This document shows, piece by piece, positions 7,507 to 57,352 of a stretch of 64,000 nucleotides of DNA. The stretch comes from Bacteroidales bacterium. Lineage in GTDB: Bacteria; Bacteroidota; Bacteroidia; Bacteroidales; UBA932. Each line of letters begins with the position of its first letter. Position 1 is the stretch's first letter. The notes beneath the pieces are model-generated. The model was not told the DNA's origin. It was given only the letters and a program-made list of their open reading frames with translations, and did not search any database. Where the stretch lies: assembly GCA_017415715.1 (NCBI GenBank), contig JAFQFD010000012.1, forward strand, positions 1 to 64,000. Direction: 5' to 3'. The position numbers and the translations under genes were made by a program.

Positions 7507-7511
7507 ATAGT

Positions 7512-10500: not shown

Positions 10501-11705
10501 ACACCCGAGTCGTCAATGTCATAGCAGGCCACGCCGTTCATGAAACGGCAGTCCTTCTGCTCCTTGACATTGTTCAGAGGCACAATCTCGTCGCTGCTCC
10601 TGTCATAGTATCCGAAGCCATAGTTGTTCATCTTGATCCAGAGCCTGCCCCCGCGATCCTCCACACGCGCCAATGTGTCAACATAATAAGACATGACATT
10701 GTTGGAATGCTCATAATGACGGAATGTGTCGGTCGAATCATTGAACGAATAGATTCCAGTACGCTCTGTTGCTATCCAGAGGAGTCCTTCCGGATCCGGG
10801 AAGAGATAGCGGACGCGGCCCATGTCATTCTTATGAAGTGTCAGTCTGAGAGTCTCAGGATCCAGGGTAGCGACAGCATTGTCCTTGAAGCCCACATAAA
10901 TCCAGCCCGACCCTCCAGTCATGACCATGGAAGTGGCCTCGGATACGCCCAGGGAGGCGAAATCGACCTTGACCTGCTCTCTGGTCTCCATGTCCAGGGC
11001 TATGAGATGGTCTGCGCAGGCAAAATAGAGGACTCCGTTCTTCTCTTCGAATGCTACGACGTCCGCATTACGTGAAAGAAGAGACACCTTGCCGTCCCTG
11101 ACCATGGAAATGCCAAGCTCGGACACGACATAGACAGATCCTTCCGAATCTTCATATATCGAAGAAATGTCCTTGCCTATGCTGCTGAAATAGTGCTCAT
11201 ATGAAAGGTCAGGTCTGACCTTCACGAGGCCCGCGCCGTTGATGCTCACCCATACATTGCCGCTAAGGTCGGGCATGATGTCGCTGACCTGCATTCCGGA
11301 CACAGGAAAGTCCTCAAGGTCTCCGGGAACGGATACAAACTCCTCGAGGTTTACATCGAAACGATACAGATGATAGTCATATGTCGTCACCCAGAGATAT
11401 CCCGCCGCATCCTCCTCCACCGACAGGATCCTGTTGTGGGAGAGGTTGGAATAATCTCCAGGCTGCATGGTATAATTCACAAATCCGTTGCCGTCATAGC
11501 GGCTGAGGCCATACCATGTACAGAGCCACAGGTAGCCGCGGCAGTCCTGGTGAATGTCGCAGATGGAGTTGTGAGGCAGGCCGTCATCAGACGAGTAATG
11601 CTCGAAGATGAACTCGAGCGGCTCGGCCTGGGCCTGACGCAGCGACGCAGTCCCCATCAGAGAGAGGACTGCAGCCGCCATGCATATGACCTTTTGAAAT
11701 CTCAT
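7512..11705 (-). CDS. hybrid two-component system sensor/response regulator (HTCS) of the pectin cluster
   Basis: A one-protein sensor and transcription activator that spans the inner membrane. It has 1397 residues: signal peptide; periplasmic two-propeller sensor made of repeats such as GYLWLCTWYGLSRYDG and GNIWLGTKGDGLIRM (about 30-760); Y_Y_Y domain (about 780-845; SRIPPGNYTFIVK); one membrane helix (about 858-882); HisKA with phospho-acceptor His in FFTNVSHELRTPLTLIIGG (near 907); HATPase with DNGIGIAKEN; a receiver domain with phospho-acceptor Asp in VITDLMMPEMDG (near 1195); and a C-terminal AraC-type HTH (about 1300-1395; SYKVGFSDPGYFSRCFKKHY). Such proteins bind an oligosaccharide breakdown product in the periplasm and switch on the cluster. 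Here it sits inside the operon it probably controls, giving positive feedback. Confidence 0.95.
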   Translation of the reverse strand: MRFQKVICMAAAVLSLMGTASLRQAQAEPLEFIFEHYSSDDGLPHNSICDIHQDCRGYLWLCTWYGLSRYDGNGFVNYTMQPGDYSNLSHNRILSVEEDAAGYLWVTTYDYHLYRFDVNLEEFVSVPGDLEDFPVSGMQVSDIMPDLSGNVWVSINGAGLVKVRPDLSYEHYFSSIGKDISSIYEDSEGSVYVVSELGISMVRDGKVSLLSRNADVVAFEEKNGVLYFACADHLIALDMETREQVKVDFASLGVSEATSMVMTGGSGWIYVGFKDNAVATLDPETLRLTLHKNDMGRVRYLFPDPEGLLWIATERTGIYSFNDSTDTFRHYEHSNNVMSYYVDTLARVEDRGGRLWIKMNNYGFGYYDRSSDEIVPLNNVKEQKDCRFMNGVACYDIDDSGVLWMSTVGRGLERVTVISPKIDVIVPPTRSDDEMSSSEVRAMTKDSNGYVWVATKSRELYRYSPDLSSCRRFPDAKTGDVGVIYSIFEDDRGNIWLGTKGDGLIRMKPDGKDYVTTRFTRDAHNPDALSSNNIYSIEQDKDGRIWVGTYGGALSMLPDPDGDKFITVRNNFPDYPQEVGDRVRYLHCMPDGQMLVATVGGLIIFTPNDNPELTEFNLIQKIPGDRNSLGNNDIIHIFTDSKDNTWLCTFGGGLNRLYFENDEPRFEIVSTEEGLASNIIHSAVEDSEGVIWIATEAGLSAYDPRTSKVRNYNTYDGVGSAAYSEATCLALEDGTVLFGTYDNVYRIDPALFAGDSASSRIVISGLSVDGKRTPFDDVIVIPHDCSFFRIDFASLDFSERGEKSFMYMLEGYDKSWISSAGTNRVTYSRIPPGNYTFIVKDYVSIPVQVKPSIWNSIYARIIYVLLALALILVVARILLTSFKIRSAAKLEQGLSDIKMRFFTNVSHELRTPLTLIIGGIDEISKNTEDGSQQEYSVNIVKKNAKRMLTLVNQLLDTRSLVDGQMRLNVSMFDVVKLVQGVYDDFRDMSVERQMEMRIIKSVDSLMVWGDSIRLEALVYNLLSNAFKYTSDGGKLEVGVLYREGDDEFRIMVKDNGIGIAKENQKAIFEPFTKGSTTAFRGMASSGIGLSFCKEIAEIHGGEIYVESEKGVGSKFFVRLPVGCEQQSEAYGVSKYKVESTCPVDARKVLVVEDNAELRVYIYNNLSSQYDVRDAGNGREALQVIAEGWMPDIVITDLMMPEMDGMELIEALRNDFNTSHIPIVMITAKHEDDTHVRAMKYGADGYIAKPFSMELLKARIDNIFERRKEVIRKPGKVEISPEEIVITDRDEQLIKKVMTWLEENVADPDVTVEQLATYVGMGRTSMYNKIKGLTGKSPVELIQDFRMEKAKFYLKSGQYSVSETSYKVGFSDPGYFSRCFKKHYGMSPADYIKQNKNS

Positions 11706-11708
11706 CTT

Positions 11709-13400
11709 TTAGAACACCTTGAAATACCACTCCACCTTCACGTCTACTCCGTGCTTGTCGATCTCGGAACCTGTCTTGAGGACATTTTCTGGTGTATATT
11801 TCTTCACCTCCTTTGCCTTGAGCGTATGGCTCCACTTCACACGGTCCTTCGCCGGAGCGGCTCCCGGACCCTTGCTGCCATACTCGGCATAGAAAGTGGT
11901 CTTCTCTGCATACTTCTTATCCCAATTGTGCCATCCTTCCTTGCGGATGTGGCTGCCGAGCTCGCAATCGATGAAGACAGTCTTTGCAAACGGTCTCCAA
12001 GGACGGCCAAGATACATCTTGTCGGTCTTTTCATCCGCAATCACGCGGCAGTTCTTGAAGACATATCCGAACTCCGCACCCTCAGGAGTCGAGGCTGCAG
12101 TCACGTAACTATTTCTCTTGCAAAGGATTGTACAGTCTTCAAACCAGCAGGTAGAGGCTCCGAAGATAAAGTCTGTGGTACCTTCGATCCAGCAGCCTCT
12201 GTAGTACTGCTTCTTGCCCTTGCCGTAAGTATAGATCGTGTCCTGGTTAGCCACGAAGCGGCAGTTGATGAATGCGACACGGTCACCGTCCACAGTGATG
12301 GCGCACGCCTGGCCAATGGCCTTGCCCTCACCTGACGCATTCTCTATGGTAAGATTCTCTGCGAGGAAATCATCTGCATAAAGGAAGACTGTCGAAGTCG
12401 CCGATGTACCGAGTTCATACCCTGTAGGACCTATCTTCTTTGCATAGTCGCTCCATGTGATGACGGTCTTGTCGGCAGACTGGCCTATCAGATGCAGACG
12501 CTGCTTGTTTGCCGGGATGGTCACCTTCTCCTCATAGACTCCGTCCTTGATGTAGATGGTGGTCTCATCCTGCTTGCAGTAGTCCGGAGCGGCATTCACA
12601 GCCTCCTGGACAGTGAAGAAATCGCCGCTTCCGTCCTTTGCCACCACGAAATCGTAGTCAACCACATGCGAAGCCAGTTCCGGAATGACCTTGACGATCT
12701 CCGGAAGAAGGAGATTCACGATCTGACGAGCTCCGGACACATTTGTATGAGTATTGTCGACCTTACCGTCAGGGTGCTTAGGGTTTGTACCCTTCTCCAC
12801 CCACATGTAGTATTTGCGTGAAGGCTCGTCGCCAAGACTGATGAGCCACTCCTGTGTAACCGTATTGGCGTCGATCAGAGGCAGTCCATATTCCTGCGCG
12901 ATCTGAGTGACAGCTGCAGGGTAATCACCATGACACTCTCTCTTGAGGTTGCCCTCGTCGTCAAACCAGCGACGAGAGACCGGAGTGAAGAGAATCGGCT
13001 TGGCACCGACGCTGAGAGCATGGTCTATGAATATTCTCAGATTGTCCTGATATGCTCCGAAAGGAGCTGCATATCTTGTGGTGTCAGACTCCTTCGAATC
13101 GTTGTGACCGAACTGGATGAAGAGATACTCCCCTGCCTTGAGGTCCTTCTTTACGCGGTCCCAGATGCCAAGAGTCTGGAAACTCTTGGTGCTGCGGCCG
13201 TTCTGCGCATAGTTTGCTATGACCACATTGGTGTCAAGGTGTGACTTGAGCCGCTGGCCCCAGCCACGCTCGGGGTTTTCATACGAGAGGTCCTTGTCCG
13301 CCATTGTGGAATCTCCCATGAGGCGGAGGACTATCTTGTCCTGTGCCACCATGCCGACGCACAGGAACATTGCTGCAATCAATAACGCTATCTTCTTCAT
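11709..13400 (-). CDS. CE12 acetylesterase fused to CE8 pectin methylesterase
   Basis: Removes acetyl and methyl esters from pectin so that lyases and hydrolases can act. The 563-residue secreted protein (signal peptide MKKIALLIAAMFLCVGMVAQ) carries an SGNH/GDSL esterase (about 25-240) with GDSTMADKD, FGHNDSKESD and the C-terminal Asp-His pair in VDNTHTNVSGA, typical of rhamnogalacturonan acetylesterases. It is followed by a pectin methylesterase beta-helix (about 249-545) with catalytic Asp residues in NQDTIYTYGKG (near 387) and TTDFIFGAS (near 411) and the substrate Arg in YLGRPWRPF. The gene begins 2 bp after the GH28 stop and ends 3 bp before the regulator. CE12/CE8 fusions are known in pectinolytic Bacteroidetes. 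Confidence 0.92.
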   Translation of the reverse strand: MKKIALLIAAMFLCVGMVAQDKIVLRLMGDSTMADKDLSYENPERGWGQRLKSHLDTNVVIANYAQNGRSTKSFQTLGIWDRVKKDLKAGEYLFIQFGHNDSKESDTTRYAAPFGAYQDNLRIFIDHALSVGAKPILFTPVSRRWFDDEGNLKRECHGDYPAAVTQIAQEYGLPLIDANTVTQEWLISLGDEPSRKYYMWVEKGTNPKHPDGKVDNTHTNVSGARQIVNLLLPEIVKVIPELASHVVDYDFVVAKDGSGDFFTVQEAVNAAPDYCKQDETTIYIKDGVYEEKVTIPANKQRLHLIGQSADKTVITWSDYAKKIGPTGYELGTSATSTVFLYADDFLAENLTIENASGEGKAIGQACAITVDGDRVAFINCRFVANQDTIYTYGKGKKQYYRGCWIEGTTDFIFGASTCWFEDCTILCKRNSYVTAASTPEGAEFGYVFKNCRVIADEKTDKMYLGRPWRPFAKTVFIDCELGSHIRKEGWHNWDKKYAEKTTFYAEYGSKGPGAAPAKDRVKWSHTLKAKEVKKYTPENVLKTGSEIDKHGVDVKVEWYFKVF

Positions 13401-13402
13401 GA

Positions 13403-15016
13403 CTAGTCGATCTTCACATTTGTAGAATTGTGCTGGAATACATTGAGGGACTCGCTTCCTGACGCATCTGTGCAGTCTTCGATCAGCACATTCCTGCAGT
13501 TTGCAACACTGTATCCCTGGCCCTCAGACTGAGTTATGTTCACATTCTTGAGCTGAACACCGTTTGAATATCTGAGGTCCGCACCCTTTGTGGAAACTAT
13601 TTCGCAATCCTCAACCACAATGTTCTCAATGTTCTTCTCTGGAATTCCGTTGAAATACATGGCCCTTGCCGCACCGCTGCAGACAACATCCTTGATGTAG
13701 ATGTCCCTGAACTGAGGTGTGGTCTCATCAGCTTCAACATATTCAACATCGAATGGAGACGCCCCCTCTGCAGCAGCCTCGACAGCCGACTTTCCGCCGT
13801 AGTGGAGATCGAAGAGGAGAGGCTCTGTAGGTATGTTCATCATCACTATGTCCTCGATGTAGATGTTCTTCACGACACCGCCACGGCCACGGCAGCTCTT
13901 GAAGCGGAGGCCGACGTCTGTGCCGAGGAAACGGCAGTTTGAAACCTTGATGTTCTCAACTCCGCCCGACATCTCGCTGCCGACCACGAATCCGCCGTGT
14001 CCATGGAACACGATGCAGTTGTCGACGATCAGGTTGCGGCAAGGCCTTGCCCTTCTGCGGCCGTCCTCGTCCTTTCCTGACTTGATGCAGATCGCGTCAT
14101 CACCCACGTCAAAACTTGAGTTGATGACGAGGACATTCTCGCATGAGTCCACGTCAAGACCGTCGCCATTCTGTGAATACCAAGGGTTACGTACGGTTAT
14201 GTTATTGATGATCACATTCTTACACATGAGAGGGTGGATATTCCAGCAAGGAGAATTCTGGAAGAGGCAGTCCTCAAGAAGCACATTCTCACAATTCTTT
14301 ATGCCTATGAGCACAGGACGGAGGTATGTCTTCACACTGTTCCATTCCTCTTCCGTAGTCAGGCCCTGAGGCACATTGAATGCATCGCTGACAACCGACC
14401 CCCTGTATGAAGTCGAGTCCGGATACCAGAGGTCTCCCTTGGCATTGGTGAAGCCGCCGCTCTTGAGAAGGGCCTTCCACTGTGAAGGTGAGATCTTGGA
14501 TTTCTTGACCTGACGCCACGAGTCACCGTTTCCGTCTATTGTGCCGCCACCAGTAATCGCGATGTTCTTCGCTCCGTCTGCATTGATAGGAGCAAGGCAG
14601 CGCTTTGTGTCAAGTCCCTCGAACACTGTCTCTACTATCGGATAGAGGTCTCTGTCTGTAGAGAAGAGAAGCACTGCATCCGGACGAATATGCAGGTCGA
14701 TGTTGTCCTTGAGAGTGATAGGGCCTGTGAGCCATACTCCTGTAGGGACGACAAGGCGGCCGCCTCCTGCCTGCGAAAGCACGTCTATCGCCTCGGCGAA
14801 TGCCTCCGTATTGAGGAACACGCCGTCTCCGACTCCGCCGAAGTCTTCTATGTTCACCTGGCGAACCGGGATGTCAGGACGCTGGACCTTGGCCATTTCG
14901 AAAGGAAGGTCCTCGTAGAGATGCCTGAATTCGTAATCTGTACCGCAAGCGAGCAGAGTGAGGCTCGCAACGAATAATGCTGCTGAACGGATCAGTCTCG
15001 TGTTGAATGTGGTCAT
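13403..15016 (-). CDS. GH28 polygalacturonase lipoprotein
   Basis: Hydrolyses alpha-1,4-galacturonic acid links in homogalacturonan or rhamnogalacturonan. The 537-residue protein has a lipoprotein signal (SLTLLACGTD) and a parallel beta-helix with the GH28 catalytic signatures NGDGLDVDSC (near 288), FDVGDDAICIKSG (Asp pair near 306), FHGHGGFVVGSEMSGG (catalytic His, near 338) and GLRFKSCRGRGG. It is the first gene of the pectin operon: a -7 box sits 25 bp upstream (15041-15048), framed by an inverted repeat. Endo- or exo-action cannot be told from sequence alone. Confidence 0.93.
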   Translation of the reverse strand: MTTFNTRLIRSAALFVASLTLLACGTDYEFRHLYEDLPFEMAKVQRPDIPVRQVNIEDFGGVGDGVFLNTEAFAEAIDVLSQAGGGRLVVPTGVWLTGPITLKDNIDLHIRPDAVLLFSTDRDLYPIVETVFEGLDTKRCLAPINADGAKNIAITGGGTIDGNGDSWRQVKKSKISPSQWKALLKSGGFTNAKGDLWYPDSTSYRGSVVSDAFNVPQGLTTEEEWNSVKTYLRPVLIGIKNCENVLLEDCLFQNSPCWNIHPLMCKNVIINNITVRNPWYSQNGDGLDVDSCENVLVINSSFDVGDDAICIKSGKDEDGRRRARPCRNLIVDNCIVFHGHGGFVVGSEMSGGVENIKVSNCRFLGTDVGLRFKSCRGRGGVVKNIYIEDIVMMNIPTEPLLFDLHYGGKSAVEAAAEGASPFDVEYVEADETTPQFRDIYIKDVVCSGAARAMYFNGIPEKNIENIVVEDCEIVSTKGADLRYSNGVQLKNVNITQSEGQGYSVANCRNVLIEDCTDASGSESLNVFQHNSTNVKID

Positions 15017-15020
15017 AAAA

Positions 15021-15063
15021 AAGTCTGTTAGTGATTATTGCAAATATAACCATTAACAGACTT
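15021..15063 (-). promoter_or_regulatory. promoter of the pectin operon with a framing inverted repeat
   Basis: On the minus strand a perfect -7 box TATATTTG lies at 15041-15048, 25 bp before the GH28 ATG. It is enclosed by inverted arms AAGTCTGTTA (15021-15030) and TAACAGACTT (15054-15063); three more base pairs, one a G-T, extend the stem to 13. Because the box is inside the loop, the repeat is more likely a DNA-binding site than an RNA hairpin. The HTCS or another regulator could bind here; this is inferred. Confidence 0.55.
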
Positions 15064-15112
15064 ATATCGTATGATTTTTTGTCACGAAATAATGACAAAT
15101 CATCAAAATCTA

Positions 15113-16219
15113 CTATCTATGATAGTATTTTATTTCGAACTCGCCGGCGAGGATGCCGTAACCGTTTTCTGCAAGAGACTCGAGTTCGTTCTCTCCTGCA
15201 TAAACTTCCACAGGAGCTATAAAGCCGACCTTGTCTATGATGTCAGCGACGATCTGTTTCGAGTTGGCGATTCCGCCGGTCAGTACAATGGCATCCACCT
15301 TGCCGCCGACTACGGTTGCAAGAGAACCGATATACTTGGCTACAGACACTGCAAAGCCCTTCAGGAAGACCTGACATTCCTGGTCGCCTTCATCCGCACG
15401 AGCAGCAACCACACGGAGGTCATTCGTTCCGAAATACGCTACAGCTCCGCCCTTTCCGACAAGTTTCTTCTTGATCTCATCCTTGGTGTACTTTCCACTG
15501 AAACACATCTCCACGAGAGGGAAACCCGGAACAGAGCCCGCTCTCTCCGGACTTATAGGACCGTCACCGCCGAGTGCGTCATTTGTATCGATCACCAGTC
15601 CGTTCCTATGCAGAGAAACCGACGAACCGCCTCCCATATGGGCGACGATCACCGTCACTTCCTTGTTGGTTTTGCCTACGCTGCGAGCATAGCGACGAAC
15701 CATGGCGCGCGAATTGAGCGCATGAAACAGAGTTCTTCTCTCGAACTCAGGGATGCCGCCTACCTTCACTTCCGGAAGCATCTCGTCTGCCATCGGAGGA
15801 TCGGCGATATAGGCACGGCAGACGCCCTCTATGCCCTTTTCAGCCCTGGCCTTGTTGACCTCTACGGCAATATCATCAGCGATGAGCGCGCTCAGATTGC
15901 AGGCATGGACGCCGTCCTTGCCTGACATCAGCGCGTCGCGCATCTCCTGATTGACTTCATACACTCCGGTCTTTATCGGCGTGATAAGACCTCCTCGTGC
16001 CATTGCAATGTCAATAGTCTCCAGTGCTATTCCCTTTTCAGAAAGGAAATCCGTAATGGCATCACGGCGCATTCCGCCCTGATCCATCACGGATTTATAC
16101 TGTGCCACTTCCTCGGCAGAGTGTGTGAGATTCTTCTCAAACAGCAGGTCTCCCGAGTCGTAGAACCCAATCTTAGTCGAGGTGGAGCCGGTATTGACTA
16201 CCAGTATTCTACCTTTCAT
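15113..16219 (-). CDS. buk: butyrate kinase
   Basis: Transfers phosphate from butyryl-phosphate (or branched-chain acyl-phosphate) to ADP, making ATP and the free acid in the cytoplasm. The 368-residue protein matches the acetokinase family in its butyrate kinase branch: N-terminal phosphate loop ILVVNTGSTSTKIGFYD, VIVAHMGGGSSVSLHRNG and a C-terminal VLTGGIANSKQI. It is the third gene of ackA-ptb-buk, 29 bp after ptb. The partner ptb makes the butyryl-phosphate substrate. Isobutyrate or isovalerate could be the true substrate. Confidence 0.92.
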   Translation of the reverse strand: MKGRILVVNTGSTSTKIGFYDSGDLLFEKNLTHSAEEVAQYKSVMDQGGMRRDAITDFLSEKGIALETIDIAMARGGLITPIKTGVYEVNQEMRDALMSGKDGVHACNLSALIADDIAVEVNKARAEKGIEGVCRAYIADPPMADEMLPEVKVGGIPEFERRTLFHALNSRAMVRRYARSVGKTNKEVTVIVAHMGGGSSVSLHRNGLVIDTNDALGGDGPISPERAGSVPGFPLVEMCFSGKYTKDEIKKKLVGKGGAVAYFGTNDLRVVAARADEGDQECQVFLKGFAVSVAKYIGSLATVVGGKVDAIVLTGGIANSKQIVADIIDKVGFIAPVEVYAGENELESLAENGYGILAGEFEIKYYHR

Positions 16220-16248
16220 AATGATATAGTTTTAGTGTTTTTCCAGTG

Positions 16249-17157
16249 TTATTTTACCGACATCGCTGCCATGGCGATGGAGTTAAGTTTAGTATCGATG
16301 CTGTCCGCACGGCTTGAAAGCACGCAAGGAGCCTTGGCACCCACCAGGATACCTGACTGTCTCACACCTGCAACGAGCTTTGAATTTGCCTTGTAGAAGA
16401 CATTTCCGGACTCGATATTAGGGAAAAGAAGGCAGTCTGCATCTCCCGCTACCGGGCTCACGAGACCCTTGATCGCAACAGACTCCTGGTCTATAGCCAC
16501 GTCAAGAGCAAGCGGGCCGTCTGCGATGCAGCCCTTGATCTGGCCACGGTCCGCCATCTTTGAAAGAATGGCAGCCTCTATAGAAGCCGGCTGGCTCGGA
16601 AGAACCTGCTCTGTAGCAGCCAGGATCGCCACCTTTGGTTTTGCGATACCTACAGCCTGGGCTGTCTTCACAAGGCACTCCATGATGATCTGCTTCTGCT
16701 TGAGGTCCGGTGCAGGGATCACTGCAACGTCTCCGACGAAAAGCAGCTTGTGGTAGCTTGGAATCTCAAGTGTAGTGCAATGTGTAAGGGTACCCTTCGG
16801 AGGGAGAAGTCCCGTCTCCTTGTTGAGGATCGCGCGGAGGAACTTGTCTGTCGAGCAGAGTCCCTTCATGAGGAAGTCGCCCTCGCCGTCGCGAACCATG
16901 CGCACCGCCGCCTTGATCGACTCCATTTCGTCTTCATTGTGGACGATCGTGAATGCTGCAATGTCAATTCCTTCGTCCTTGCAGGCCTGTGCAATGAGGT
17001 TTTCATCACCTACGAGGGTTACATCCGCGAGACCGAGCTCTACGGCCTTGCCGGCAGCCGCCACGGTGTGTCCGTCTACACCCCATGCGGCAACCATCCT
17101 CTTTCTGCTGCCTCTGCTGCGAAGCTCGGCATATATCTGTTCAAATGTGGTCAGCAT
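16249..17157 (-). CDS. ptb: phosphate butyryltransferase
   Basis: Converts butyryl-CoA and phosphate to butyryl-phosphate and CoA. The 302-residue protein belongs to the phosphate acetyl/butyryltransferase family: VAAWGVDGHTVAAAGKAVEL near the N-terminus, LMKGLCSTDKFLRAIL mid-protein, and a C-terminal AGVRQSGILVGAKAPCVLSS. Its length (about 300) fits Ptb rather than the longer Pta. It lies 10 bp after ackA and is followed by buk, the classical Ptb-Buk route of butyrate formation. No crotonyl-CoA or butyryl-CoA dehydrogenase genes are in the window, so the source of butyryl-CoA is not shown here. Confidence 0.92.
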   Translation of the reverse strand: MLTTFEQIYAELRSRGSRKRMVAAWGVDGHTVAAAGKAVELGLADVTLVGDENLIAQACKDEGIDIAAFTIVHNEDEMESIKAAVRMVRDGEGDFLMKGLCSTDKFLRAILNKETGLLPPKGTLTHCTTLEIPSYHKLLFVGDVAVIPAPDLKQKQIIMECLVKTAQAVGIAKPKVAILAATEQVLPSQPASIEAAILSKMADRGQIKGCIADGPLALDVAIDQESVAIKGLVSPVAGDADCLLFPNIESGNVFYKANSKLVAGVRQSGILVGAKAPCVLSSRADSIDTKLNSIAMAAMSVK

Positions 17158-46945: not shown

Positions 46946-48391
46946 ATGAAGCGCCTTATAACATCCATAGCTCTGGCCCTCCTGCTTTGTGCAGCATCGG
47001 AGGCGAAGCTCACCGTATCAAGCATCTTCACAGACAGCATGGTCCTTCAGCAGAACACCGAAGCGGCCATCTGGGGAAAAGCTGATGCAGGCTCACAGAT
47101 TACAGTAACGACTTCATGGAACGGAAAGTCATACCGCGCCAAGACAGATTCTGACGGAAGATGGGAAGTGAAAGTAACGACTCCAGCGGGAAGTTACAAG
47201 CCATACAGCGTCACAGTAAAAGGCAACGGAGGTTCAATCACCCTGAACGACGTTCTCATCGGAGAGGTATGGCTCGCATCAGGACAGAGCAACATGGAGA
47301 TGCCGATGAGAGGTTTCTACAATTCTCCTGTCGAGCATGCGCAGGAATACATCTGCGCGCCTGCCGCAAAGGAAAAGGTGAGAATGTTCCATGTGCATGT
47401 AAAGCAGTCTTATGAGCCGCTTGAAGAGGTTGCGGATTCGAAATGGGTCGGAGCCGAGCCGTCGACCGTACAGTGGATGAGCGCCACAGCATACTTCTTT
47501 GCAAACAGACTTAACAGAATGCTTGACATTCCGGTAGGTATTGTCTCTTGCGCATATGGCGGAGCAAGGATCGAGAGCTGGACTCCGAAGGAGATCCTCG
47601 AGACTTATCCGGACGAGGACCTCAGCCGTGAGACCATAGAGGCGATGACACATTATCATCGTCCATATCTGGCATACAATGCAATGCTCTGTCCGGTAAT
47701 GGGATACACCATCAAGGGATTCATCTGGTACCAGGGATGCTCGAATGTCGGAAAGCACGAGCAGTTCTGCGAGAGGATGAGCAACATGGTCAACCATTGG
47801 AGAGAGTGCTGGGATGACACTGAGGCAAAGCTGCCGTTCTACATGGTGGAGATCGCGCCGTACAGATACAAGCCTCAGACCGAGACCAGCTACGCCGCTC
47901 TGCTTCGTCAGGCTCAGCACGAGGCGGCCCGTCAGATCCCGAACAGCGCCATCGTCGTGACCAATGACCTCGTTGAAAGCTTCGAGCAGGACAATATCCA
48001 TCCGATGAAGAAGCTCGAGGTCGGAGACAGACTTGCAAGACTCGCCCTCAACAGAGACTATGGAATGCACGCAGTTGCATGCTACAGCCCTGAAGCGACC
48101 TCATGCAGGCTTGGAGAAAGACCTAACGAACTCGTTGTATATCTTTCACACAGCGAAAACGGACTCAACAGATGGATGGAAATCGAAGGTCTTGAGGTAG
48201 CAGGCAGCGAAGGCATATTCTACCCTGTGACATATGCCTACTTCGTATGGGGAGAGAATGCACTGCTCGTGAGATCGGAATTCGTTCCGGACCCTTGCCA
48301 GGTACGCTATGGCTGGGGAGACTTCAAGCCGGGCAACCTCAAGAACTGCGAAGGCATGCCGGTATCACCATTCTGGCTAAAGGTTGAATAA
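46946..48391 (+). CDS. sialate O-acetylesterase-like SGNH carbohydrate esterase
   Basis: Removes acetyl groups from sialic acid or other sugars in the periplasm. The 481-residue protein has a signal peptide (MKRLITSIALALLLCAASEA), an N-terminal beta domain (about 22-105) and an SGNH esterase with the nucleophile in VWLASGQSNMEMPMRGF, GIVSCAYGGARIESWTP, WYQGCSNVG and the Asp-His pair in QDNIHPMKKLEVGDRLA. The end of the gene overlaps the nuclease start by one base (TAATG), so they are coupled. No sialidase is nearby; xylan or pectin acetyl groups are possible substrates. Confidence 0.88.
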   Translation: MKRLITSIALALLLCAASEAKLTVSSIFTDSMVLQQNTEAAIWGKADAGSQITVTTSWNGKSYRAKTDSDGRWEVKVTTPAGSYKPYSVTVKGNGGSITLNDVLIGEVWLASGQSNMEMPMRGFYNSPVEHAQEYICAPAAKEKVRMFHVHVKQSYEPLEEVADSKWVGAEPSTVQWMSATAYFFANRLNRMLDIPVGIVSCAYGGARIESWTPKEILETYPDEDLSRETIEAMTHYHRPYLAYNAMLCPVMGYTIKGFIWYQGCSNVGKHEQFCERMSNMVNHWRECWDDTEAKLPFYMVEIAPYRYKPQTETSYAALLRQAQHEAARQIPNSAIVVTNDLVESFEQDNIHPMKKLEVGDRLARLALNRDYGMHAVACYSPEATSCRLGERPNELVVYLSHSENGLNRWMEIEGLEVAGSEGIFYPVTYAYFVWGENALLVRSEFVPDPCQVRYGWGDFKPGNLKNCEGMPVSPFWLKVE

Positions 48392-50016
48392 TGACCAAGA
48401 AAATCACATCACTTCTTGTATTGTTCCTCATGCTCACAGCATGTGGACCGGACAGTCCTGTGATTCAGGACCCGGACACAGACGGCACGGAACAGGGTCC
48501 TGTAAATCCAGGACCGGAGGACCCAGATCCTGAGACGCCAGGACCGGAGGATCCTGAAGCACAGTCTGCGTTCTATGTTGAGGTGGCAGAGTCGCTTTCA
48601 GACTGGAGCGGAGATTACCTCATCACATATTCGACAAGCGGTTCCATCCTCGTGTTTGACAGCTGGAACGGAGATACTGCCGGAGGTTCCGAGAATGACA
48701 TCCATGCTTCTCTCACGGCAGATGGCATCCCTGCTGAGAACGGAGACCCATATAAGGCGGTAGTCACAAAATCCGGCAGCGCATATACAGTCTATGTGAC
48801 CGGGATCGGATATATCGGACTTGAGAGCAGCAAAAATGCCCTCAACAAAGCTTCCGGCATACCTTCCGGATCGGAAGACAATTACCTCTGGACATTCTCA
48901 TACAAAGATGGAGGAAGTGTCTGGATGCGAAATGTCGCATACGACGGCAGGAGACTCCAATGGAATGCCGACGCAGAGATGTTCAGATGCTATACAGGAG
49001 GGCAGAAAGATCTTACATTCTATCGCAGAAGCACATCAGCAGGCAGCATTCCTGATCCGGACAAGCCGGACACTCCGGATCCGACTCCGGATCCGACTCC
49101 GGACCCTACGCCCGACCCTGATCCGACACCTGATCCTGGAGACGACGAGGATATTCCAGAGCCTGTCCCAGGAGCCAGCGGTCTGTATGGATGGTATGAG
49201 CTTCCTCAGATAAATTATTCGAAATCAGGTTCATACCTGATCGACAGCAACAATAAGGACCTATATTACGCACACCACATGTGCGCAGGTAACGAGAAGG
49301 GTCCTGGCGGAAAGAAGGCCAGGAACTATACAGTATGCTACAGCGCAGAGCACCACTGCCCTGTCTGGGTTGCCGCACCAAGACACAAGATGTATCAGAG
49401 CGGTGCAAGCAGGACCGATGCATACGGCAAAGACCCGAGCATTCCTTCTGACATACAGTACAATTCAAAGAGCACAGGCGGCGGCTGCAACAAGGGACAT
49501 ATGCTCGGTTCGGCTGAGCGTCTCTCCACCACTGCTACAAACAAGCAGGTGTTCTATTATACCAACATAGCGCCTCAGTACTCGAACTCCTTCAATACCG
49601 GTGGCGGAGGATGGAACACCCTTGAAGACTGGGTGGACAAGCAGGTGTGTTCTGACACGCTGTATGTAGTGATCGGAACATATTTCGAGACATACACTGA
49701 TAAACGAGGTTACACAGACTCTCCGAAAACCATTTCATTCGGAGGCAGGAGCGACGTGACACGCCCGTCCATGTTCTACTACATACTGATGAGGACAAAG
49801 AGCGGAAGCAGCGGCAAGCCTCTGTCTCAGTGCAAGTCATCTGAGATCAAGTGCGCGGCATTCGTCAGAAGTCATGCCACACCAAAAGGCGTTGCTGTCA
49901 GTGCCAAAGACCTCATGTCAGTGAGCGACCTCGAGAAGCTTACGGGATTCACATACTTCCCTAACGTGCCGCAGGCGCCAAAAGATACGTACTCAGCATC
50001 AGACTGGGGTCTATGA
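48391..50016 (+). CDS. secreted DNA/RNA non-specific endonuclease, multidomain lipoprotein
   Basis: Predicted to digest nucleic acid outside the cell. The 541-residue lipoprotein (LMLTACGPD) has an Asp/Pro/Gly-rich spacer, a beta-domain (about 65-210; SGDYLITYSTSGSILVFDSW), a second spacer of repeated PDPT units (about 220-255) and a C-terminal NUC1 domain (about 280-530). The nuclease motif is GCNKGHMLGSAERLS (NKGH where DRGH is usual) with YYTNIAPQYSNSFNTGG. The changed first residues of the motif leave the catalytic His in place. It is followed 10 bp later by a second, shorter nuclease of the same family. Confidence 0.88.
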   Translation: MTKKITSLLVLFLMLTACGPDSPVIQDPDTDGTEQGPVNPGPEDPDPETPGPEDPEAQSAFYVEVAESLSDWSGDYLITYSTSGSILVFDSWNGDTAGGSENDIHASLTADGIPAENGDPYKAVVTKSGSAYTVYVTGIGYIGLESSKNALNKASGIPSGSEDNYLWTFSYKDGGSVWMRNVAYDGRRLQWNADAEMFRCYTGGQKDLTFYRRSTSAGSIPDPDKPDTPDPTPDPTPDPTPDPDPTPDPGDDEDIPEPVPGASGLYGWYELPQINYSKSGSYLIDSNNKDLYYAHHMCAGNEKGPGGKKARNYTVCYSAEHHCPVWVAAPRHKMYQSGASRTDAYGKDPSIPSDIQYNSKSTGGGCNKGHMLGSAERLSTTATNKQVFYYTNIAPQYSNSFNTGGGGWNTLEDWVDKQVCSDTLYVVIGTYFETYTDKRGYTDSPKTISFGGRSDVTRPSMFYYILMRTKSGSSGKPLSQCKSSEIKCAAFVRSHATPKGVAVSAKDLMSVSDLEKLTGFTYFPNVPQAPKDTYSASDWGL

Positions 50017-50026
50017 CCCATCGATC

Positions 50027-50938
50027 ATGCGTAGAACGCTCTTCATATCAGTCCTCATAGTTCTGACAGGCATCACTTGTCTGGCACAAAGGCACCCGTC
50101 TGGCTATCTCAAATGCTTTGAGATGCCGGACATCGACGTGTCAGAAAATACGAGGAAAGGTACTGTAAAAGAAATATACGGCACATCAAACGCACTCACA
50201 TACGACATTTCCACAACTCAAAGGATGGTGATTCATACTTTTGCCGACCGTGGAAAGGTTCAAAGGAACTATTCCTTCCTTTATGACTACACAAAGCGCT
50301 GTCCGCTGTGGGTCGCATACCCGATGAACAAAGGATTCTGCAGCAGCGAGGGCAGCAGGACAAATGCATGGTGCGCAGACCCGGCGGTAAATGAGAACAG
50401 ACAGCCGGCTCTGTACAAATCATACTGCTCAGAAGGGAAGCCATACAACAGGGGGCACCTGCTGTCCTCACATGCAAGGACCGGAAACACAGTCGCAAAC
50501 CAGCAGACATTCTACTTCACCAACATGGTTCCGCAGCTCAGCTCCACATTCAACTGCGGAGGCAGCTGCTGGAACGCACTGGAAGAAGCCGAAGTAGCAG
50601 CAACCCCTTATGGCAGAGACACCTTATATGTAGTGACAGGATGCATCTTTGAAGACGGGCACAAGTCTGTCAGGAACAGGAACGACGGCATTGACTGCGC
50701 TGTCCCGGACAGTTTCTTCAAATGCTACATGAAATGCTCTTTTGACTCATCGGGAACGGTGACAAGTGCGAAAGCAATAGGCTACATAATACCGCACAAC
50801 GCCCCAAAGAACACATACTATTCCCTATATGCAGCAAGCATTGACAAGATCGAGTCCATCACAGGATGGGATTTCTTCGCCAATGTTCCTGAAGCCATAC
50901 AGGAAAAAGCTGAAGCCACAATGACAAAAATACTATAA
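50027..50938 (+). CDS. secreted DNA/RNA non-specific endonuclease
   Basis: A 303-residue periplasmic or secreted nuclease of the NUC1 family, with signal peptide (VLTGITCLA-QR). Catalytic motif PYNRGHLLSSHARTGNT, then FYFTNMVPQLSSTFNCGGSCW, as in the upstream enzyme; Cys pairs in this region suggest disulfides. It lacks the spacer and extra domain of its neighbour. The pair probably scavenges extracellular DNA and RNA, a role consistent with their place after purC, though co-regulation is not shown. Confidence 0.9.
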   Translation: MRRTLFISVLIVLTGITCLAQRHPSGYLKCFEMPDIDVSENTRKGTVKEIYGTSNALTYDISTTQRMVIHTFADRGKVQRNYSFLYDYTKRCPLWVAYPMNKGFCSSEGSRTNAWCADPAVNENRQPALYKSYCSEGKPYNRGHLLSSHARTGNTVANQQTFYFTNMVPQLSSTFNCGGSCWNALEEAEVAATPYGRDTLYVVTGCIFEDGHKSVRNRNDGIDCAVPDSFFKCYMKCSFDSSGTVTSAKAIGYIIPHNAPKNTYYSLYAASIDKIESITGWDFFANVPEAIQEKAEATMTKIL

Positions 50939-53419: not shown

Positions 53420-53423
53420 CATG

Positions 53424-53454
53424 AAAAGACCTTCCGCGGCGGAAGGTCTTTTTC
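53424..53454. terminator. bidirectional terminator between VOC gene and macro-TIR gene
   Basis: A hairpin with arms AAGACCTTCC and GGAAGGTCTT and a short GC loop (about 53426-53450), followed by T on the plus strand and, through the AAAA before it, by T on the minus strand. It closes both convergent transcripts. Confidence 0.75.
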
Positions 53455-53455
53455 G

Positions 53456-54544
53456 TTATTTCTCATGGATTCTGGCGAATTCTATTCCTGAATATAGTTT
53501 CTGTCTGTCCAACTTCTGAGTTGTGAAATCCAGATAATCACGATAGATCATATTCATATCTATTCTTGTATGGTAAGATGACTTGTCCAGACGGACCGGG
53601 ATGATGTGTTTGTCAAGACTTACAGAATATTCGATTTCCATGGTGACATACTTGGATTTCGCCGAATTCTCCGAAACGACGAACACAACGGAAGATGCCT
53701 TGCGGATTGCTTTTGTTATAACCTCCTGGAAATGCTCACCGCTGTGGATTGACTCTTCGTCTATCCAATATTTTATTCCCTTTTCAGCAAGAGCATCTTT
53801 TATCATCTTGATCTTTCCACTATGACTATCTTCCCTTGCATAGCTGATAAACACTTCATGATCCATCTCATCAGCCGACCTGAAAGGAGTCTGCTCTAAA
53901 TCTGACTCTTGATCATGCTCTTCAGAATAATCGTTGTAATTGGACGATCTGATTTTTGATGCAGCTGCATTGACAGCCAGATTCTCGAATAAGTCAATGT
54001 AGTCCATCTCATTTACCTTGCCGTGCTCTGCATATAAATATAGCTCTACATGAAGTGAACGGTTTGTTGACGAAAGATTAGCTGATATTACTTCCGCCAT
54101 CATACGGCCGACAACCGGCATAGGAATCTCGGCATTTCCAGCACCTATATATGGAAAAGCAATAGAATCAAGTTCGAGGGCGTCGAGTATTCTGAAACAT
54201 TTATCTGCTGAATGCCTGATGACAAATTCCCGAAGGTCCTCTGCCGTCACAAGACCGCTGGGGAGTCTGTGGAAATCCTTTGTCATACAATGAAACACGA
54301 ACTTCTGATGGGGCAGCTTTCCGGATGTCGACACAACGACATCACCTAATTTAGACGGAGTGTGCCTCTGCGCATCGCGCTGAATCTCCTCGCCACCGGC
54401 AAGAAGGATAGCCCGCGAGACACCTCCTCTCATAGAGATATCCGTATCATCTGAACTGACAATGACACTCGCCTTGCTGGTCGTAATGTCTCCGAAGATT
54501 ACGGTCAATGTCGATTTGTTGAAAGTGTAAGTTCTAGAATCCAT
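53456..54544 (-). CDS. macro domain-TIR domain fusion protein
   Basis: A 362-residue cytoplasmic fusion. Residues about 8-172 are a macro domain: FGDITTSKASVIVSSDD, RGGVSRAILLAGGEEI and the phosphate-loop FPYIGAGNAEIPMP, the parts that grip ADP-ribose-like ligands. After an acidic linker (about 195-227) comes a TIR domain (228-350): HEVFISYAREDS, BB-loop region YWIDEESIHSGEHFQE and SKYVTMEIEYSV, where Glu 303 fits the catalytic SxWxxxE-type Glu of NAD-cleaving TIRs with Tyr for Trp. In type II Thoeris, separate TIR and macro proteins make and sense a signal; here both are in one chain. It is the last gene of a tight operon. Defence function is inferred. Confidence 0.88.
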   Translation of the reverse strand: MDSRTYTFNKSTLTVIFGDITTSKASVIVSSDDTDISMRGGVSRAILLAGGEEIQRDAQRHTPSKLGDVVVSTSGKLPHQKFVFHCMTKDFHRLPSGLVTAEDLREFVIRHSADKCFRILDALELDSIAFPYIGAGNAEIPMPVVGRMMAEVISANLSSTNRSLHVELYLYAEHGKVNEMDYIDLFENLAVNAAASKIRSSNYNDYSEEHDQESDLEQTPFRSADEMDHEVFISYAREDSHSGKIKMIKDALAEKGIKYWIDEESIHSGEHFQEVITKAIRKASSVVFVVSENSAKSKYVTMEIEYSVSLDKHIIPVRLDKSSYHTRIDMNMIYRDYLDFTTQKLDRQKLYSGIEFARIHEK

Positions 54545-54547
54545 ATG

Positions 54548-55807
54548 TTATCCATTATTGTTTCTATTCATGAGAGCTTCCAAGGCTTCAGATTGTGTGA
54601 GTCTTGGGTTTTTGAAGGCCAGGCTCAGCAGATATTCCTGACACTCCTTGATCATTGGTCCTGGCGTAAGGCCCAACTCATTTATTATATCTTTCCCTGA
54701 AACCGGAAGCTTGTAGCCATACATTGCCGTTCCGTCTTCGGTCATGGCTGACGATCGGTGCTTGATTTCAATAATCTTTGCTTCCCCGTCGGACAATGAT
54801 GCAGCAAGAAGAAGAACCTCTTTGAATCTGTCAGCGGTGACGCACTTATGCTGCATTTCTCTTATCCTGGAGTCCTCGACAGTTTCCCATTGCAAGACTT
54901 CCGAACAGCATTGGATCAGGCAGGTGATGTCTGAGACTTCAGCGATAGAAAGTCTAAGTCTGTCCATGATGTCGCGAGCTCTCTGACTATCATAAAGCAA
55001 AGCAGCAAGCCTGAGACGCATATCGGCTGTCTCCAATGACAGTGTCCTCAAAGCCCTTATGGCAGCATTTGATGGCATTTCCTGCAAGACATATTCAACA
55101 GCCCCTATGGTGCAGAGCAGTTCGACTGCCATTGCCGGCCTGTCGTCCTGAAGCATTTTCAGGAACTCCTCGCTGATTCTCGCCGGAGTCAGTATAGACA
55201 TTCTCGGCACCATTGCCTTCATCGCTGCGAGAGTCTCTTTTTCTATCTCCCAGCCGAAGCGGGCGGCGAAGCGGACGCATCGCAGGATGCGGAGCGGGTC
55301 CTCGTCGTATGTGCGATATGGGTCTGCCGGTGTACGGATTATATGATCATGTATATCCTCCAGGCCTTTGCCTGTGATATCTACGATTTCTCCAGTTGAA
55401 ACATTCTGATATAAAGCATTCACAGTCAAGTCTCTGCGCATGCAATCTTCCTCGTGAGTGCCATATGATGTCACAGGATTGCGACTCTCCCTGTCAGGAT
55501 ATGACTCCTTACGGGTCTGGACTGACTCCAGTTCTATTTCAGGGTATTCAGCAAGACGGAACTTGGCGGTATGATAATCATGAAAGACAGAGGGTTCAGA
55601 AACTGTATGACCTTCTGCATGAAGCCACTGTGCCAGTCTGATGCCTCCGTCTGGAAGCGCCACCGATATGTCTATGTCCTTGATCTCGCATCCCATGATG
55701 TCATCACGGCAGCATCCACCCACAAAAAAGACCCTGTTCTCGAACTCTGTGTCCGAGATCAGCGTCTTCAGACGGTCTCTTATCTCTATGTATATAGATT
55801 TGTCCAA
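54548..55807 (-). CDS. CCA-type tRNA nucleotidyltransferase/poly(A) polymerase family protein
   Basis: Adds CCA or single nucleotides to RNA 3' ends. The 419-residue protein has the class II nucleotidyltransferase head: VFFVGGCCRDDIMGCEIKDI with DxD at Asp 44/46 (IKDIDISV), then MRRDLTVNALYQ and DPLRILRCVRFAARFGW. The C-terminal half ends LPVSGKDIINELGLTPGPMI, typical of CCA enzymes. The place where many family members have an HD phosphohydrolase reads LRLAALLYDSQRA, without the HD pair. It is 3 bp before the macro-TIR gene and starts at the phosphatase stop. It may be the cell's CCA enzyme or a specialised copy; the window cannot tell. Confidence 0.85.
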   Translation of the reverse strand: MDKSIYIEIRDRLKTLISDTEFENRVFFVGGCCRDDIMGCEIKDIDISVALPDGGIRLAQWLHAEGHTVSEPSVFHDYHTAKFRLAEYPEIELESVQTRKESYPDRESRNPVTSYGTHEEDCMRRDLTVNALYQNVSTGEIVDITGKGLEDIHDHIIRTPADPYRTYDEDPLRILRCVRFAARFGWEIEKETLAAMKAMVPRMSILTPARISEEFLKMLQDDRPAMAVELLCTIGAVEYVLQEMPSNAAIRALRTLSLETADMRLRLAALLYDSQRARDIMDRLRLSIAEVSDITCLIQCCSEVLQWETVEDSRIREMQHKCVTADRFKEVLLLAASLSDGEAKIIEIKHRSSAMTEDGTAMYGYKLPVSGKDIINELGLTPGPMIKECQEYLLSLAFKNPRLTQSEALEALMNRNNNG

Positions 55808-56314
55808 CTATTGGAGTCCTTCTTTTATCTCGTCAAACAGATTCTTACATGCATCCTCCAGAAGGTCCAGGACCATTCCGAAGCCCTCGCTTCCCATATA
55901 ATAAGGGTCAGGAATATATGTCATCCTGCTGTTTTTCAGATAGCTGGCCATCCTCTTGATCTTGTGCGTGGCTTCCACTGAAGGGGCAAGATGCATAAGG
56001 TCCTCATAATTCCTGTCGTCCATAGCTATGATCAGGTCAAAATCAAGAAAGTCCAGGGACGATACAGGTCTGGAGCGATGCGTCAGGGCGAAGCCGCGGT
56101 AGAGCGCAGCCGTACGCATGCGACGGTCCGGCAGCTCGCCTCTGTGACCGCCATATGTACCCGCAGAGTCCGCCTCAATCCTGTCCTCCATCCCGTTCTC
56201 TCGCACAAAATGCTCTAATATACCCTGAGCCGCCGGAGAACGGCATATATTCCCAAGGCACACGAAAAGGACTTTGTATTTGTTATTGATATTCAAATCG
56301 TTATGATTATTCAT
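55808..56314 (-). CDS. low molecular weight protein tyrosine phosphatase
   Basis: Removes phosphate from protein tyrosines (or arginine/small phosphoesters) in the cytoplasm. The 168-residue form from the ATG at 56314 is chosen because a perfect -7 box lies at 56375-56382; the longer frame starting at 56416 would precede it. The catalytic P-loop VLFVCLGNICRSPAAQ (CX5R, Cys 19 and Arg 25) and the general-acid Asp in MTYIPDPYYMGSEGF are present. It is the first gene of a three-gene operon with the CCA-type enzyme and the macro-TIR fusion, with no space between genes. Confidence 0.9.
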   Translation of the reverse strand: MNNHNDLNINNKYKVLFVCLGNICRSPAAQGILEHFVRENGMEDRIEADSAGTYGGHRGELPDRRMRTAALYRGFALTHRSRPVSSLDFLDFDLIIAMDDRNYEDLMHLAPSVEATHKIKRMASYLKNSRMTYIPDPYYMGSEGFGMVLDLLEDACKNLFDEIKEGLQ

Positions 56315-56374
56315 ATTTTTATGGTTTACACTACGGTTTACAATATCTTCTATTGTATTTTCTGTAAGTCTCTG

Positions 56375-56382
56375 CAAAGATA
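56375..56382 (-). promoter_or_regulatory. -7 box of the phosphatase-nucleotidyltransferase-macro-TIR operon
   Basis: Minus-strand TATCTTTG, exact consensus, 60 bp upstream of the phosphatase ATG. No other promoter-like site is possible within the tightly packed operon, so all three genes probably depend on it. Confidence 0.5.
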
Positions 56383-56562
56383 AGTAAAGTTTTTCTTTTT
56401 CGTCTGCTGTTTTCAAGGGGGAGTTCCCCTCGCCAGACGGTATTGTCTACCCCGCTTAAAGTTAATCTAATCGCCGAGATTGACAGATAGTTTTACTCGG
56501 CAAATTCACGAAAACAATTCACGAAATCACTCTATTACCGAGGTGTATTAAATATAAATCAC

Positions 56563-56596: not shown

Positions 56597-57352
56597 ATGA
56601 AAAAGCTTCTATTTTTATTTCTCGTCATTGCTCTTGCATCTTGCAATAGTGTCGGTAACGCCCCTACCGTAATAGATGAGAAATTCGACCCGACATTAGA
56701 TTCATTATATATCCAATGTAAAGACTTAAAAGGCATTGGAGAACTTCGTATAGGAAAAGTCACGTATCGACAAGTCAAGAAAGATAAAGGCATTACTCTT
56801 TCTCCTATCTTATTCGACACATACACCAATTTTTATAATGGCTTTTGGGGTGAATCCAGTAGTATGGAGTTAGCAAACTACATTGAAGATAACGCGACTA
56901 AAATTAAGCAATTTCACGTTGGTAAGTATAAAGTTGGCGAACTGACTATTGACGATGTTGACCTTGCTTTCTATCGCGACACATTGGTTGCAATCTCATT
57001 CGACTGTTCCGATAAACTGCTGGAACATTACAAATCAAAGTATGGAAACGGCAAGGGGAGCAACTACCGTTACACATATTCTCGTGGTGAATATGGTGAA
57101 AAGGGATATGTGTTTGAATGCAAGGAAAAAGAAGACAGAATGTGGGCAAATGAACGTGTCACGATGAAATATGAGCATTACTGGGACCAACGTACGGCTA
57201 CGGACGAAAGACAAAGGGTATATGGTTCAACATCGTGCGTAATTTCATCTAACGATAGATACGACGATTTTCTTAATGAGTTAAATAAACATAAGAAAGC
57301 ATATAAGGAACTGAAAGAAGCAAAAACCCAAGCTTCATATGACAGTCTTTAA
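56597..57352 (+). CDS. orphan AT-rich lipoprotein
   Basis: Not recognised. A 251-residue lipoprotein (signal MKKLLFLFLVIALASCNS, lipid Cys at 16) with a mixed alpha-beta body: ELRIGKVTYRQVKKDKGITL, AFYRDTLVAISFDCSDKLLE, YGEKGYVFECKEKEDRMWAN, and a charged coiled-coil-like C-terminal helix (FLNELNKHKKAYKELKEAKT). Two Cys at about 138 and 177 could pair. The gene is visibly AT-richer than its neighbours and uses AT-ending codons, a sign of recent transfer. It sits between the macro-TIR operon and alr. Function unknown. Confidence 0.75.
   Translation: MKKLLFLFLVIALASCNSVGNAPTVIDEKFDPTLDSLYIQCKDLKGIGELRIGKVTYRQVKKDKGITLSPILFDTYTNFYNGFWGESSSMELANYIEDNATKIKQFHVGKYKVGELTIDDVDLAFYRDTLVAISFDCSDKLLEHYKSKYGNGKGSNYRYTYSRGEYGEKGYVFECKEKEDRMWANERVTMKYEHYWDQRTATDERQRVYGSTSCVISSNDRYDDFLNELNKHKKAYKELKEAKTQASYDSL

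Follow-up and report, generated by a model that had tools for sequence, protein, structure and literature searches.

Introduction

To our knowledge, TIR proteins of bacterial immunity either make a signal for another protein or are themselves switched on by sensors that respond to cyclic nucleotides, to guides or to phage proteins. Type II Thoeris combines a TIR protein (ThsB) with a transmembrane macro-domain protein (ThsA). Excerpts of the respective papers describe Cat1 as joining a CARF sensor to an NAD+-depleting TIR domain (PMC12162218), TIR NADases as being switched on when other domains bring the TIRs together, for example in STING-TIR and SAVED-TIR proteins (PMC12847820), and the macro domains of ThsA as oligomerising upon ligand binding (PMC11204291).

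Here, we describe a gene from a 64,000-nucleotide stretch of DNA of a gut bacterium of the Bacteroidales (the window) that encodes a macro domain and a TIR domain in one apparently soluble chain. Type II Thoeris likewise brings TIR and macro together in ADP-ribose (ADPR)-type signalling; however, it consists of two or more proteins and has a membrane effector. A macro-TIR fusion is not named in the titles and abstract beginnings of the open-access literature searched, although it may be described elsewhere, nor is it described in the excerpts of PMC9503650, PMC8195603, PMC7159879 and PMC7824862. We read the protein, with middling confidence, as a ligand-gated NADase of bacterial immunity that combines sensor and effector in one chain.

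Results

The window encodes a macro-TIR fusion protein

The gene lies on the minus strand at positions 53456-54544, starts with an ATG at 54544 and encodes 362 amino acids; the plus-strand reading of the same interval contains 16 stops. Both domains were found by Pfam in the order given by a preliminary description of this DNA, Macro (PF01661) at residues 33-145 (48.1 bits, E 1.3e-12, cut-off 22) and TIR_2 (PF13676) at residues 231-343 (79.5 bits, E 3.8e-22, cut-off 28). The related models PF01582 (41 bits) and PF08937 (31.9 bits) also scored above their cut-offs. Taken together with an alignment to solved structures (residues 13-173), the macro domain covers about residues 10-175 (54020-54517, minus strand), and the TIR domain, delimited by Pfam and by a TIR alignment of seven copies, about residues 228-345 (53510-53863, minus strand). 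The motifs FGDITT (17-22), GGVSRAI (40-46) and IGAGNAEIP (133-141) and the candidate catalytic Glu 303 (codon 53636-53638, minus strand) are located where they had been placed, and the glycine loops are present in the window copy.

The domains are separated by residues 176-227 (53864-54019, minus strand; from alignment and composition). The acidic linker described earlier is found in residues 191-228, which are variable and contain 10 D/E against 3 K/R, but the region also holds a conserved stretch, residues 180-190 (MDYIDLFENLA), in which Y182, E187 and A190 are invariant among the six intact copies. Hydropathy averaged over 19 residues peaks at 1.13 in the window protein; hence a membrane helix is not indicated, in line with what had been noted before. 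No NCBIfam model reached its cut-off (best 60.7 bits against 278), no PADLOC match to the window protein spanned both domains, and Pfam matched no CARF or SAVED domain at E 1 and no APAZ or delivery domain. A terminator-like inverted repeat (53424-53452, minus strand, also readable on the other strand) follows just 3' of the gene; five such sites were found in the region, with 2.7 expected. The genome contains one PF01661 match and two TIR_2 matches. The second TIR_2 protein, on contig C34 (L036, 8640-9734), has an N-terminal TIR domain followed by a SEC-C-like motif assigned by eye.

Macro-TIR proteins are rare and patchily distributed in Bacteroidales

Full-length relatives were found in 2 of 299 genomes of the family (the own genome and G208), 3 of 393 of the order (own, G604 and G607) and 1 of 395 of the phylum (own only), in sets that overlap partly and count the own genome each time; altogether the searches comprised 1993 genome look-ups, overlapping in part. 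By these surveys, the fusion is rare and its occurrence patchy. A pattern scan of genome contigs with the single protein was unproductive, whereas two peptide patterns run on GTDB r220 contigs yielded six loci that represent five distinct copies, two of them the G604 and G208 copies again (same motif sequence). The named GTDB records are Bacteroidales assemblies whose titles refer to water deer rectum, sheep rectum, yak rumen and goat abomasum, in addition to SIG149, for which the title gives no host. Thus, seven distinct copies are known, all in Bacteroidales: the window copy, L034 (G208), L095 (G604), L096 (G607), L177, L179 and L180. Seven is a lower bound, since the contig scans rest on few peptide patterns. 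The L096 copy carries an in-frame stop between the macro and TIR domains. In G208, the gene is present in inverted copies equidistant from both ends of contig C24 (L034 and L035; 91,946 bases), either a real inverted repeat or an assembly artefact.

Because full-length relatives with the same domain order occur in other families of the order, the fusion is not a chance joining; it is a real, rare and conserved domain fusion. An origin from phages or plasmids was considered and rejected: neither the 50,697 phage records (at E 1e-5) nor the IMG/VR scans contained a match, and in the two of 72,556 plasmid records that matched, the best place was the TIR part only.

The macro domain resembles a reader and the TIR glutamate is invariant

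In all seven copies VSSD replaces VNAAN, and the Asp of GGGVDG is changed to Ser or Ala. Standalone macro domains from Bacteroidota retain NAAN, both the 17 (of 17) that share a tree with the seven copies and six others that were inspected. NAAN and the Asp of GGGVDG are catalytic in MacroD-type hydrolases. The macro-TIR proteins lack this motif set in 7/7 copies, and a MacroD-type eraser was therefore rejected; with NAAN replaced throughout, the macro domain looks like a reader rather than an eraser. Six copies retain the first glycine loop (GGVS in the window protein). L179 has lost it; there the second loop is changed too and the TIR Glu is retained. Macro binding is therefore probably absent or changed in L179, a copy which shows that decay of the macro loops is compatible with a retained TIR Glu.

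Phylogenetically, the seven macro domains form one clade, lying on one side of a branch with 100/100 support. A macro-only profile, run at E 1e-17 against 237 genomes of the class, detected the own gene and a single further match in a 206-aa open frame (L188). Synonymous sites are saturated in most pairs of copies. Selection was read from the one close pair, L034-L180. For this pair, dN was 0.17 and dS 1.73 in the macro domain, dN 0.32 and dS 1.29 in the linker, and dN 0.13 with saturated dS in the TIR domain, revealing purifying selection in that pair. The simplest reading would be a single fusion event followed by selection on both domains.

Aligning the TIR domains of the seven copies leaves Glu 303 as the sole Glu common to all of them; its catalytic role we presume from likeness to known TIR NADases. 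Among solved structures, TIR-APAZ chains from short Argonaute systems are nearest to the TIR domain by profile; in PADLOC, the TIR parts of SAVED-TIR and TIR-Argonaute proteins match it best. The seven TIR domains are not monophyletic in the best tree, but monophyly is not rejected (p-AU 0.464). In its remarks on what would speak against it, the preliminary description had listed homologues without the Glu or without pocket residues. The Glu is kept in 7/7 copies; NAAN is replaced in 7/7, and L179 has lost its loops.

The same description had proposed a signal maker and sensor in one protein, which is possible. Here, ADPR or one of its derivatives would be produced by the TIR domain and bound by a macro domain, either of that chain or of a neighbouring one, resulting in amplification (ignition) or in shut-off of the TIR. 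Pfam domains and the TIR Glu make both activities plausible in one chain, and known TIRs release ADPR while ThsA macro domains bind it (excerpts of PMC12847820 and PMC11204291). We nevertheless consider such product feedback unlikely, given the changed NAAN in 7/7 copies and the loss of the glycine loops in L179 with the TIR Glu kept. In ThsA, the Asn N114 contacts the distal ribose (PMC11204291, in an excerpt); together with the VSSD motif, this suggests that the ligand of macro-TIR may not be plain ADPR.

Neighbourhoods of the other copies differ

In L034, one strand carries an AAA_14/DUF4143 gene, macro-TIR, TssD (Hcp, PF17642), two small genes without Pfam matches and a gene for a 1190-aa nSTAND1 protein. 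By eye, the start of the latter resembles DUF4062, which is absent from its Pfam matches; DUF4062 proteins are described as TIR-like NADases in an excerpt of PMC13174449. An ADP-ribosylglycohydrolase gene (PF03747; L034, 9369-10568, plus strand) is located about 3 kb from macro-TIR on the opposite strand. In L180, the surrounding genes encode an FGE-sulfatase, a BACON protein, a PrsW protease, a TIR-FGE protein, a 904-aa TIR_2 protein and a microbial PARG. The BACON gene ends 3 nt before macro-TIR, and the run from FGE-sulfatase to PARG (5508-16984) is on one strand.

The neighbours of L095, L096, L177 and L179 look like housekeeping genes by eye, a judgement to be read with the fact that many neighbour names were assigned without profile search and that the L095 contig ends about 560 bases away on one side. 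In L179 (7165-9077), macro-TIR begins 11-20 nt after a MazG-like gene (by eye). Conflict-type genes (other TIR, nSTAND1 or PARG) thus adjoin two of the seven copies, L034 and L180; with four of seven among apparent housekeeping genes, a place in a defence island is not a general rule. Consistent placement in non-defence housekeeping loci had been named beforehand as speaking against the earlier proposal, and the position of these four copies in part bears this out. The closely related L034 and L180 have unlike surroundings; hence the gene appears to move as a unit.

These neighbourhoods bear on two further explanations. The protein could be a scaffold or a metabolic regulator of NAD+ or ADP-ribose without a defence role, rather than an immune NADase. 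Such a function would suit the four copies in housekeeping surroundings (by eye) and the lost macro loops of L179, yet the gene is absent from nearly all sampled relatives, the TIR Glu is invariant, and two copies adjoin other TIR, nSTAND1 or PARG genes, so that we regard it as distinctly unlikely. Alternatively, macro-TIR could act against other bacteria as an effector that a type VI system delivers, as the TssD gene next to it in L034 might suggest. Neither inspection by eye nor the Pfam scans made revealed a TssD gene in the other six loci, the protein itself lacks a delivery domain, and this explanation is scarcely credible.

A phage-type tRNA nucleotidyltransferase adjoins the window copy

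Upstream of macro-TIR lies a gene on which the preliminary description is silent. It encodes a 419-aa accessory tRNA nucleotidyltransferase of phage type (54548-55807, minus strand, TTG start; identified by Pfam, phage search and trees). Macro-TIR begins 3 nt after it, and it directly follows the stop of a low-molecular-weight protein phosphatase (LMWPc) gene (55808-56416, minus strand; Pfam and synteny), a flank common to sister genomes. When 61 genomes of the genus were searched with PF01743, two matches occurred in the own genome, one in each of 56 others and none in four; the nucleotidyltransferase is therefore an extra one. It is without the HD part of the housekeeping enzyme (by eye on the alignment) and retains the GG-RD, DxD, RRD and DPLR motifs.

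Its nearest kin are found in Lak phages of Prevotella. The best 15 of 391 matching phage records are all Lak megaphages, which share 35-37% of residues with it across 98% of its length (E 3e-86 to 1e-84). The Lak-C1 protein is 37% identical, full-length and colinear. In a listing of 14 phage matches chosen for spread, all except the Lak row were at 4e-22 or weaker. Within 295 genomes of the order, the best non-self match was 1.7e-41 over about half the length, and a profile of the window and Lak enzymes detected nothing at 1e-55 in 248 other genomes of the family. A scan of IMG/VR with the single enzyme as query was unproductive. A first tree had very long branches. In a tree of 16 sequences, the window enzyme grouped with Lak and two IMG/VR enzymes (85/75) apart from 11 bacterial ones (100/99), subject to a long-branch warning that includes the placement of the window row with Lak; the twelfth bacterial row, L145, is very long. 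The window enzyme is closer to the phage enzymes than to the housekeeping copy of its host. A recent duplication of the host's own gene was rejected, the housekeeping copy on contig C44 being a separate lineage. Two other genomes of the order (G408 on C14, G588 on C73) have two nucleotidyltransferase matches each, one of those in G408 (L145) being very divergent.

The Lak enzyme thus resembles the window enzyme over its full, colinear length, but the latter is chromosomal and stands beside macro-TIR. Searches for macro-TIR in the Lak locus gave only chance-level matches, and the nucleotidyltransferase partner is absent beside the other six macro-TIR copies. The pairing hints at an RNA theme, in which ADP-ribosylated protein, tRNA or DNA, arising from a phage ADP-ribosyltransferase or during RNA repair, would be the macromolecule onto which the macro domain docks the TIR. 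The nearest solved structures to the window macro domain, those of PARP14 macro domains, favour this idea, as does an excerpt of PMC7824862 according to which CCA-adding enzymes, KptA and macro domains serve RNA repair in jumbo phages. Docking is very improbable in our view, the pairing being confined to one of seven copies.

Macro-TIR and the nucleotidyltransferase form an accessory islet

Of 60 other genomes of the genus, 11 contain a close LMWPc orthologue (62-84% identity). None of seven syntenic loci in the genus (L170-L176) contained a nucleotidyltransferase or macro-TIR match at E 1e-4, L175 being a locus that ends 1.2 kb beyond LMWPc. The nearest genome, G1097, shares AlaR, SDR, DJ-1 and Zn-peptidase-like proteins at 97-98% identity (names by eye except DJ-1 and SDR), LMWPc at 85% and a glyoxalase at 87%, and has a TonB receptor gene between the last two. 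The stretch of the window that does not align with G1097 extends approximately from 53420 to 55832 (genome alignment). In G1103, the SDR gene adjoins LMWPc. Macro-TIR has a G+C content of 43.4% and the nucleotidyltransferase one of 48.7%; the window as a whole has 50.2%, and the glyoxalase and SDR genes about 52%. Sister loci without both genes, together with the G+C figures, therefore indicate that the two constitute a two-gene accessory islet. A chimeric contig was rejected, as the genes on either side of the insert follow the order of G1097.

A plus-strand gene at 56597-57352, between LMWPc and AlaR, encodes a 251-aa protein with a G+C content of 37.8% and a weak lipoprotein signal below cut-off. 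LMWPc and AlaR are directly adjacent in G1097, and this gene is therefore a second accessory piece at the spot. Elsewhere in the window, two adjacent plus-strand genes (48391-50016 and 50027-50938) encode DNA/RNA non-specific endonucleases (PF01223).

Discussion

From these sequences we infer ligand binding, oligomerisation, NADase activity and an anti-phage role of macro-TIR. As a ligand-gated NADase, the protein would use its N-terminal macro domain, which is not of the MacroD hydrolase type, to read an ADP-ribose-type ligand. This ligand would be a free ADPR derivative or an ADP-ribosylated target, most likely from outside the chain. Binding would bring chains together, the TIR domains would assemble and cleave NAD+, and the loss of NAD+ would make the cell stop or die before the phage completes its cycle. 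Because the plan of a sensor joined to a TIR is established by CARF-TIR, SAVED-TIR and STING-TIR proteins, and the TIR domain has affinity to TIR-APAZ chains, we prefer a ligand-gated enzyme, still with middling confidence, to an unlikely self-gating one. Several observations speak against the preferred reading. The NAAN Asn positions are changed, which may mean another ligand or a loss of binding; L179 has lost its glycine loops and retains its TIR Glu; four of the seven copies have no recognisable defence gene next to them; the L096 copy is broken; and the TIRs are not monophyletic in the best tree, although monophyly is not rejected.

A wider proposal, which we regard as doubtful, holds that the TIR NADase is gated by an ADP-ribose reader in its own chain. 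What the enzyme itself produces, or a target ADP-ribosylated in the course of infection, would assemble and ignite it as a one-gene, all-or-none NAD+ switch, which in this genome would share a two-gene islet with a megaphage-type tRNA repair enzyme. If true, no separate signal enzyme would be needed for the switch, and a macro sensor in the same chain would link NAD+ destruction directly to ADP-ribose chemistry. Macro-TIR would make TIR switching by the enzyme's own product testable, and a small, single-gene, apparently soluble protein would make the test simple.

Membership in type II Thoeris was rejected. The window protein has no match to PF20016, the ThsA-type macro model, at E 1 (two relatives have matches below cut-off), nor is a membrane helix indicated or a second gene of the system found beside it. 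No separate TIR gene of the ThsB kind lies beside macro-TIR, whose neighbours are the nucleotidyltransferase and LMWPc; the other TIR_2 gene is on contig C34. Among solved structures, SPARTA, in which TIR-APAZ acts with a short Argonaute, has the closest TIR by profile, but macro-TIR is without APAZ and no Argonaute is among the adjoining genes examined. In plan, macro-TIR resembles Cat1 (CARF-TIR, type III CRISPR) and the TIR-SAVED and TIR-STING proteins of CBASS, which hold a nucleotide sensor and a TIR in one chain and in which ligand-driven assembly precedes NAD+ depletion, the logic we propose for macro-TIR. It differs from them in that the sensor is a macro domain and no cyclic-nucleotide synthase is recognised beside the gene. 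What is new would thus be a macro sensor placed on the known plan of a sensor-TIR effector.
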